Shown: positions 22,829 through 25,350 of the stretch, piece by piece
Layout: every line of letters starts with the position of its first letter
Numbering within the stretch: position 1 is the stretch's first letter
Source: Sulfobacillus thermosulfidooxidans DSM 9293
Lineage (GTDB): Bacteria > Bacillota > Sulfobacillia > Sulfobacillales > Sulfobacillaceae
Reading direction: 5' to 3'
DNA: 64,000 nucleotides
Assembly (NCBI RefSeq): GCF_900176145.1
Contig: NZ_FWWY01000001.1
Location: 3,391,011-3,455,010, forward strand
Position numbers and translations under genes: made by a program
Notes under the pieces: model-generated
What the model was told of the DNA's origin: nothing
Database searches by the model: none
The model's input: only the letters and a program-made list of their open reading frames with translations

Positions 22829-23608
22829 TTAGGCGTTCAGTGTCAACATATAAATCCCTACGATAATCACAACTCCCGAAAAAACAAAGTTCAATAATCT
22901 CTTTTGTTTACTTAATTGGTTTGCTAGGCGAGTGCCCAAAACGCCTCCGAGTATGCCTCCTCCTACATACTCCACAACAACAAGCCACAATACCAAACCA
23001 GAGAATGCATAGTTGATAGCTGTCGTTAACCCGAATGTCCCCACGGAAAATAACGAGCTACCAATCGCATAAATCATGGGCATTCCGGTTGACATAATGA
23101 GTCCCGGTACAATTAAAAAGCCTCCACCAATACCGAAGAATCCCGACACAAATCCCACAAGCAATCCCGCCGGAATCACCCGCAATAACATTTTATGTGT
23201 CCAATGAAAACTGGTCGTCGTACTTTCACCTTTCTTGGGTTTCAGCATCAATATCGCAACGACAATCATCAGCAACGCAAACAAGAACAGCAAATCTTTC
23301 CCATTAACGATTTTCCCGATAGAGGACCCAATAAATGCTCCCACTGCTCCCGGAATAGCAAATCCTATAGCCGCTCCCCATTTGACATTACCGCTTCGCC
23401 AGTGAGGAATCAGGTTCAAGTAACTATTCACAGCTACGGCCAATGCCGTGGTACCAATAACCAAATGGGGATCGTGAATGCCAACAAAATATAGCAACAA
23501 AGGCACGGCCATAATAGACCCGCCGCCACCAATTAAGCCTAAGCTGAAACCCACAATCACTCCTGAAATAACGGCCAACACTTGTTGTATGGCCGTGACA
23601 TGAACCAT
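22829..23608 (-). CDS. TSUP (TauE/SafE) family sulfite or sulfoacetate exporter
   Basis: 259 residues, eight to nine membrane helices in two related halves. Each half begins with a glycine-rich helix, SLGLIGGGGSIMAVPLLLYF and GFVSGFFGIGGGFLIVPGLIMS, the repeated motif of the family. Known members export sulfite or organosulfonates, which suits a sulfur-oxidising host, though the substrate is not readable. The ATG at 23617 abuts AGGAG, so the ATG nine bases further (23608) is the better start. It ends at the 14-bp hairpin. Confidence 0.85.
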   Translation of the reverse strand: MVHVTAIQQVLAVISGVIVGFSLGLIGGGGSIMAVPLLLYFVGIHDPHLVIGTTALAVAVNSYLNLIPHWRSGNVKWGAAIGFAIPGAVGAFIGSSIGKIVNGKDLLFLFALLMIVVAILMLKPKKGESTTTSFHWTHKMLLRVIPAGLLVGFVSGFFGIGGGFLIVPGLIMSTGMPMIYAIGSSLFSVGTFGLTTAINYAFSGLVLWLVVVEYVGGGILGGVLGTRLANQLSKQKRLLNFVFSGVVIIVGIYMLTLNA

Positions 23609-23750
23609 TGAAAACATCTCCTACCCTGCATATTTCTGCTCCCTATTTTACTCTTAATAATGTCATTTGACGACAACTCTTCAAGAAAAATTAATCGACG
23701 TATTTCACAATTAAACATTTAAAAGACGTTGTTAAATTATATTTGATTAA

Positions 23751-24344
23751 TCAAAACTCCTGCGCCGTAGCTACTTGCCAAATTTTTTGTGCCAAAATCC
23801 ATTCGTTCGCGGTCAAGACCATAAGATTCTCATTAAAAGCAAAAGTCGGTACCGTCTGGATCGACAGGATCTTTAAGAGATCCCTTGCCTTATCCAAATC
23901 AATCGCGAACACGTTAATGTGCGGATTACGTAAACTCATGGCTCCAATCAGGCGAACTGCCTGAGCACATTTCGGTCAGCTCGGCGTGGTGAATACGGCT
24001 ATATGCACGGATTCTCCAATGCTATCGACTAAACTTTCGGTCATTGGCGTCAATATTTTTTGCCCACGACCCACGGCTAAGACTAAATCTCGCCAACTCG
24101 CTTCTTCTTGACCAATAGGTTCACCCACAAACCAGATATGTGCTGCCGAATCCTCGTGAGCAATCCCATAAAGTGGTAAGTTCCGGGGAAACCACGACCA
24201 TACGATCTCAGGAAGCTTGTCCACCGTTTCCCAAAAAATCCACTCATTGTCCGCAAATTGTTGGACAAACGCGGGATGACCTTGACCATATTGCATAATA
24301 TGGACAGGTTGCACCAAATTATCCAGCCATGGTAATCTCGACAT
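23751..24344 (-). CDS. Candidate selenoprotein: thioredoxin-fold protein with UPKC in place of CPKC
   Basis: Two frames separated by one in-frame TGA (23978-23976) form a continuous 197-codon gene. The joined protein resembles the two-thioredoxin-fold PDO / AhpF N-terminal type. The first fold (1-105) lacks a CxxC. The second starts with HIAVFTTPS, then TGA, then PKCAQAVRLIGA, and ends with the cis-proline motif QTVPTF. The TGA falls exactly where family members have the first catalytic cysteine. A hairpin 17 bases after it fits a bacterial SECIS. The ATG has AGGAG seven bases upstream and begins four bases after the glycosyltransferase stop. The true stop is also TGA. The alternative is a nonsense-mutated pseudogene. 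Confidence 0.65.
23941..23966 (-). promoter_or_regulatory. Candidate bacterial SECIS hairpin
   Basis: On the minus strand, 17 bases after the in-frame TGA, CAGGC-AGTTC-GCCTG forms a perfect five-pair stem with a five-base loop. An outer GCT/AGC pairing is separated by a five-base 3' bulge. Published bacterial SECIS rules ask for 16-37 bases between UGA and the apical loop and a G among the first two loop bases; both hold, and the loop contains GU. Confidence 0.5.
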
Positions 24345-24348
24345 TATG

Positions 24349-25257
24349 TCACTCCTGTCCTGATTCGTGCACAACCACTTGTCCCGAAATTTTTTCGATA
24401 ATGCTGCGCCATCCGGCGATGACTATCCCAGTTTCATGCATCTGAGCAAATTCCATTCCACGCCGAATTAAGACTTCTCGTAAACGCAGATTATCGATAA
24501 CCTCTTGAATCGCTTCAGCCCACTCGGCGCCATCATCACTCGACACTAATAGCGCAGGATATCCCCAAATGTTTCGCGTGTCAGGTGTATCTCTTAACAC
24601 CACGGGAAGACCATGCGCATAGACATCTATCAACCGGTATAACTGACTAGGATCACGATCAGGATACACCAAGACATCTGCTGAATGATACAGACCCGAT
24701 AATTGACTAACCGATAAAGGAGGAGCAAAAATTACGTGTTGGGCCAAACCTAAACGGGCCACAACAGGTGCTAATCGGTCACGGAAAGCCGTTCCCCCAA
24801 TCAAAATCGCCTCCCCTTGCACCGTCAACAGCCTCTTCATTGCCGCCAAAAATGCCGTCAACCCGGACCCGTCCTGAAAAGACCCTAAATATAAAATGCG
24901 TGGTCTTTCCGACAACCGTAGATCGCGGGTGATAGCAAAGACATTCTCATCCAGCCCCAGTTCTTTGGGGGCATATGCGGGCAATCGTAAAAGAGTTTTT
25001 GTTTCGGACGTCTCATGTCCCCATGCCAATCCAACAGGGCTTGGCCACTTCGTATGCGCGTCACCCAAAGGATGCACGATGAGATCCCCCGAACGAGCCT
25101 GTTCGCCCACCGCAATGGTAAATGGACGAGAAGGAAGCCACGAACGTTTAGATGTCGGTAATTGCCAATTTTTCATTATCGGCGTAAGCCGCTCCACAAC
25201 CGCTTGGTCAAGATCGGTAGGGTGAGATCCTAGATGAAAACGTATGAATCGTGCCAT
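24349..25257 (-). CDS. Glycosyltransferase-like protein, GT4 C-terminal domain
   Basis: A 302-residue GT-B type protein. RPRILYLGSFQDGSGLTAFL near 145 opens the donor domain, with LAQHVIFAPPLSVSQLSGLY near 200 and DVLVYPDRDPSQLYRLIDVYAHGLPVVL near 220, the equivalent of the donor-binding loop, although the canonical E-x7-E glutamates are replaced by aspartates. Activity is therefore uncertain. The ATG at 25257 follows AAGGAG by seven bases; the upstream extension of 25 codons has no ribosome site. The gene is translationally coupled to the candidate selenoprotein and divergent from a LysR regulator. Confidence 0.6.
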   Translation of the reverse strand: MARFIRFHLGSHPTDLDQAVVERLTPIMKNWQLPTSKRSWLPSRPFTIAVGEQARSGDLIVHPLGDAHTKWPSPVGLAWGHETSETKTLLRLPAYAPKELGLDENVFAITRDLRLSERPRILYLGSFQDGSGLTAFLAAMKRLLTVQGEAILIGGTAFRDRLAPVVARLGLAQHVIFAPPLSVSQLSGLYHSADVLVYPDRDPSQLYRLIDVYAHGLPVVLRDTPDTRNIWGYPALLVSSDDGAEWAEAIQEVIDNLRLREVLIRRGMEFAQMHETGIVIAGWRSIIEKISGQVVVHESGQE

Positions 25258-25321
25258 GAATAAACTCCTTGCGTCTACTAGTGACAAGGCCTCGTCATAC
25301 AATGAAGACCGGTAGGCATCG

Positions 25322-25350
25322 TAGCCAGTCACCTTAAGTTACTGTATAAT
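25322..25350 (+). promoter_or_regulatory. Candidate promoter of the LysR gene
   Basis: TAGCCA (25322-25327), 17-base spacer, perfect TATAAT (25345-25350). It lies in the divergent region shared with the glycosyltransferase-selenoprotein pair, where LysR regulators usually bind. Confidence 0.5.

Follow-up and report, generated by a model that had tools for sequence, protein, structure and literature searches.

A gene of Sulfobacillus thermosulfidooxidans DSM 9293 contains an in-frame UGA, at codon 123, that is very probably decoded as selenocysteine in a functional thiol-redox protein. Within the window, i.e., the whole stretch of 64,000 nucleotides that was analysed, the gene lies on the minus strand. 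The basis is computed and comprises the reading frame, conservation, the exchange of Sec and Cys among relatives, the decoding genes, a SECIS-like hairpin and the fold; from these we infer the incorporation of selenium in the cell, the redox partners and the physiological role. Features of this kind are well known, and we consider the result solid and not surprising; the subfamily is not covered by the curated models tested. An automatic annotation would probably stop at residue 122, and the active site of the protein would be lost. Besides, the gene adds to the evidence that Sulfobacillus, a bioleaching acidophile, has several redox carriers that share a fold and are based on selenium.

Gene, predicted product and redox role

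Two adjacent frames had been joined by the initial annotation into one minus-strand gene of 197 residues, interrupted by the TGA at 23978-23976 alone, and all of its coordinates proved right; its interpretation as a selenoprotein gene is supported as well. The features of the locus are as follows, in positions of the window:

23751..24344, minus strand: predicted selenoprotein gene, 197 codons plus stop, tandem thioredoxin-fold product of AhpF-N/PDO-like type (basis: read-through translation, 7-member alignment, dN/dS)
24344 (start ATG) and 23753-23751 (terminal TGA), minus strand: ends of the selenoprotein gene
23976..23978, minus strand: in-frame UGA, codon 123, position 1 of the UPKC motif, predicted selenocysteine (basis: TGA in 5/7 and Cys codons in 2/7 orthologues)
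23967..23969, minus strand: codon of Cys126, the putative resolving Cys and the sole Cys of the selenoprotein
23847..23849, minus strand: codon of Pro166, the thioredoxin cis-proline (QTVPTF), invariant in 7/7 orthologues
24352..24356, minus strand: AGGAG, ribosome-binding-site-like, 7 nt 5' of the ATG and within the 3' end of the upstream gene (basis: sequence)
24349..25332, minus strand: glycosyltransferase (Glyco_trans_1_4), upstream, as in 7/7 Sulfobacillus orthologues (basis: Pfam)
22829..23617, minus strand: TauE/SafE family membrane exporter, downstream, as in 7/7 Sulfobacillus orthologues (basis: Pfam)

With the inner TGA read through, the translated product has 197 residues and contains the motif TTPS-U-PKC and the cis-Pro segment QTVPTF, both of which had already been recognized. 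The inner TGA is the only stop within the frame, and there are no frameshifts. U123 and C126 are the only Sec/Cys residues of the protein, and thus the active site is formed by these two. The stop of the glycosyltransferase gene lies 4 nt before the ATG of the selenoprotein gene, and both are probably co-translated. The order glycosyltransferase, selenoprotein, TauE/SafE exporter is found with all seven Sulfobacillus orthologues. Some have extra DNA before TauE; in S. benefaciens (L070:4600-5956), about 1.3 kb is added between the selenoprotein gene and TauE.

The earlier description of the product as a thioredoxin stands as regards the fold and can be sharpened to a tandem thioredoxin fold of AhpF-N/PDO type. 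The AlphaFold model (pLDDT 92, with Sec modelled as Cys) is matched best, over nearly its whole length, with Z 22.9 (181 residues) by the AhpF N-terminal domain and with Z 22 by protein disulfide oxidoreductases (PDO), whereas single thioredoxins give far lower scores (Z about 8). As modelled, the product is a compact two-thioredoxin-fold protein, whose redox pair lies in the C-terminal fold (Sec123-Pro-Lys-Cys126), the N-terminal one having none. The active redox pair of AhpF is also located in the second thioredoxin fold only, and the N-terminal domain of the Salmonella and E. coli enzyme is the best structural match. Unlike AhpF, which is defined by its fusion to a flavoprotein disulfide reductase, the present protein is encoded by a stand-alone 197-aa ORF without the flavoprotein part and with glycosyltransferase and TauE neighbours; Sec replaces the first Cys, and the identity is 18%. 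The fold is also shared with the archaeal and Aquifex PDOs (PfPDO, 1a8l; AaPDO, 2ayt), and the best sequence match among solved structures is a PDO (E 2.8e-13). A PDO carries one CxxC per fold, whereas the N-terminal fold of the present protein is devoid of any Cys, its only pair being Sec123 and Cys126.

At the level of sequence families, the protein gives weak matches to the generic thioredoxin and glutaredoxin models of Pfam. Among the NCBIfam models, TIGR02187 (PDO_seleno_TRX) matches best, with 67.5 bits versus a cut-off of 185, and the Cys orthologues score 67-74 bits against the same model. Reviews already list selenoprotein members of this family, with UxxC, as 'homolog of AhpF N-terminal domain', and members have already been reported for Symbiobacterium. 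The model and the structural matches agree with the layout of TIGR02187, which is that of two thioredoxin folds in tandem, the second of which has the U/CxxC, and the exchange of UGA and Cys codons is common to both. In contrast, the present protein aligns over residues 63-177 only, has 197 aa versus about 217, and belongs to a separate clade. Because the score is well below the TIGR02187 cut-off and members are seen in Sulfobacillaceae only, we think that the selenoprotein and its orthologues form a divergent new subfamily, apparently undescribed. The protein is not named in the searched literature, where the Sulfobacillus papers name a Sec formate dehydrogenase and the peroxiredoxin PrxU.

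The source genome (3.86 Mb) has three more TGA-containing paralogues, with the motifs UPYC (L032), UPHC (L041) and UTRC (L045), which, like the hairpin described below, are absent from the initial annotation. The first two exceed the TIGR02187 cut-off; L045 is below it (110.9 of 185 bits), and its UTRC type may be another undescribed subfamily. A Cys paralogue of the same fold, with the motif CRWC (L024), is also encoded.

The redox role is likely that of a Sec-dependent thiol-disulfide carrier, the exact role being a point on which our confidence is about evenly balanced. Judging from the fold and the motif, the selenolate of Sec123 would attack a disulfide, or an oxidised peroxiredoxin, and Cys126 would resolve the selenenylsulfide. 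By analogy with AhpF and PDO, a thioredoxin-reductase-type flavoenzyme could re-reduce the Sec123/Cys126 pair, and peroxiredoxins or other disulfides could be the clients. A more tentative proposal, to which we give somewhat less than even weight, is that this Sulfobacillaceae-specific subfamily, outside the curated models examined, and the three UGA paralogues are dedicated selenium redox carriers with their own client or clients. Alternatively, the selenoprotein might serve the glycosyltransferase operon or a sulfur/sulfite pathway instead of general thiol-disulfide transfer, as could be suggested by the translational coupling to the glycosyltransferase and by the TauE/SafE exporter downstream throughout Sulfobacillus. 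We think that this is unlikely, since the copy of a neighbouring genus (L076) lacks both neighbours within 1.5 kb, the neighbourhood by itself says little within a syntenic genus, and a general redox carrier is what the fold points to. General thiol-disulfide transfer is the role that we favour.

SECIS-like hairpin and decoding machinery

As both the inner and the terminal stop codons are TGA, it had been argued that their context must distinguish the two. This was borne out by a SECIS-like hairpin that follows the inner UGA and that the terminal one lacks:

23948..23964, minus strand: SECIS-like hairpin UCAGGC-AGUUC-GCCUGA, 6 bp, loop starting 17 nt past the UGA (basis: folding, recoding, covariation, uniqueness)
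23954..23958, minus strand: apical loop AGUUC, 5 nt, of NGUNN type, with GU at the equal place in all TGA relatives

In the bacterial SECIS model (PMC13188914), the stem has 4-16 bp and the loop 3-9 nt, loop position 1 or 2 is a G whose 3' neighbour is often G or U, the distance from the UGA is 16-37 nt, and the MFE is at most -7.5 kcal/mol. The hairpin is within all of these bounds, having a 5-nt loop (AGUUC), 5-6 bp, a distance of 17 nt and -11.3 kcal/mol over 48 nt; it is unlike that of E. coli. When the window gene was recoded synonymously, with the codon usage of nine window genes, an equally stable hairpin appeared in about 0.1% of the recodings (p about 0.001). In the alignment of 32 TGA-containing relatives, 97% of the cells are paired and four of the six pairs have changes on both sides, which amount to 15 cells, compared with 2.7 after shuffling; when the structure is shifted by one column, the pairing decreases to about 40%. 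Within the window, the hairpin follows only one of the 2,251 TGA triplets, which is the inner TGA of the selenoprotein gene. Ten in-frame TGAs of the window are flanked by at least 60 open codons on each side, and again the hairpin is present at that of the selenoprotein only; translation of five of the other nine suggests chance frames or neighbouring genes.

The structure is not uniform among relatives: the outermost base pair is absent in two orthologues (L018 and L020), and the copy from the neighbouring genus has one mismatch. In the UTRC paralogues, the encoded residues themselves impose part of the pairing, with about 40% of the recodings retaining all pairs. The hairpin is not matched by any Rfam SECIS family, and a search of the locus at E up to 10 gave just one chance match, on the other strand. 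The Rfam SECIS_1 model had no match in the source genome, and the control was likewise without a match anywhere.

A search for selA, selB, selC and selD had been put forward as a check, and all four are present. The source genome encodes SelA, SelD, SelB above the cut-off (357.6 bits) and a tRNA-Sec with UCA anticodon (64.5 bits), which together are the set used for assigning bacterial selenoproteins. Among the eight Sulfobacillus genomes, SelA and SelD are found in 8/8, SelB in 7/8 and an over-cut-off tRNA-Sec in 6/8. The sole exception for SelB and tRNA-Sec among nearly complete genomes is a draft MAG, 96% complete (G004; L022 and L055), in which neither was found. It retains the TGA in the selenoprotein gene, its paralogues and SelD, and the lack may be an assembly gap or a real recent loss. 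The SelD gene of the source genome has its own in-frame TGA (SGUGCK, L056:1531-1533) and, 17 nt further on, the GGA loop of an 8-bp hairpin, which is kept in the four species checked. As its loop is at the same 17-nt distance, it serves as an internal positive control for the selenoprotein hairpin. On this strong computational evidence, SelB and Sec-tRNA-Sec would bind the hairpin for inserting Sec at UGA 123, and the terminal UGA, without a hairpin, would end translation.

The source genome also has an extra tRNA-Cys (L009:1501-1593; C1:1064426-1064514), about 7 kb from selD, with GCA anticodon, a tRNA-Sec-like long variable arm and a lengthened acceptor stem, which exceeds the Rfam tRNA-Sec cut-off; a normal tRNA-Cys is found elsewhere in the genome (L097). 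The extra one resembles the selC*-type tRNA-Cys described from anaerobes, and the kind with a long variable arm is reported to include members with UCA anticodon elsewhere (PMC7609411). Such a molecule brings to mind a suppressor tRNA that reads UGA as Cys or another amino acid, without selenium. We find this very improbable. The GCA anticodon speaks against the extra tRNA-Cys as a UGA decoder, a proper tRNA-Sec(UCA) is present, and the hairpin accompanies the TGA genes, most Cys genes having a damaged one. Moreover, UGA is the normal stop for 9 of the 34 long open stretches in the window, for which reason we also reject a genome-wide reassignment of this codon. Selenocysteine remains the amino acid that we assign to UGA 123.

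Conservation of codon 123 and probable replacement of selenocysteine

An orthologue was found in seven of the eight Sulfobacillus genomes, the eighth (G002) being merely 61% complete. All seven are syntenic, and the other six are 48-86% identical to the window protein. It had been claimed that the TGA would hardly fall at this residue by chance, and an inspection of homologues for TGA or Cys had been proposed. The orthologues carry exactly these: codon 123 is TGA in five and Cys in two (TGC and TGT), with no other codon, which, together with the uniqueness of the hairpin in the window, agrees with the claim.

Both halves of the selenoprotein gene are under purifying selection. Comparison of the window gene with its closest orthologue (86% identity) gives dN/dS of 0.11 upstream of the TGA and 0.18 downstream, with Fisher p values of 1.6e-13 and 2e-5, respectively, which indicates selection on either side. 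The downstream value means that the region 3' of the TGA is translated in frame, which rules out gene decay; the initial annotation had named decay as a possible refutation, and no sign of it is seen, synteny being kept as well. Another option is that two proteins are made, the first one stopping at the TGA and the second one re-initiating at the ATG at 23939, where an ORF of 62 aa begins. In our opinion this is hardly credible: the stretch from the TGA to that ATG (PKCAQAVRL.GA) hardly varies in the 7-member alignment and would not be needed by a re-initiated product, two orthologues are one continuous Cys-containing protein, and the split would cut the thioredoxin fold through the active site. 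Gene decay with a nonsense mutation, or else an error of sequencing, would explain the in-frame TGA itself and nothing else. Either is practically untenable, as the identical TGA kept in five independent genomes and the downstream frame, where third positions account for 18 of 30 differences, with no further stop or frameshift and with conserved synteny, refute both a pseudogene and an error.

In a maximum-likelihood phylogeny, the orthologues group with the window gene in a clade of their own (support 100/98), which includes the TGA copy L076, from another genus of the family. A search of limited reach over 299 genomes of the phylum (E up to 1e-10) found full-length members of the subfamily within Sulfobacillaceae only. 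The species collection of GTDB, scanned with a pattern and also with limited reach, gave solely Sulfobacillus records and two Bacillota MAGs matching the same genus.

The two Cys orthologues are one nested pair inside the clade, which is most simply explained by a single Sec-to-Cys replacement in their common ancestor. Replacement in stages is visible within one genus, from TGA with an intact hairpin, through the TGC copy with a fossil hairpin, to the TGT copy with an eroded one. Among Cys-coding relatives in general the hairpin is mostly damaged. Two of them, L019 and L036, retain a near-complete or complete hairpin that looks like a fossil of a recent Sec-to-Cys change; remnant SECIS structures of such a kind have already been described (PMC1794560).
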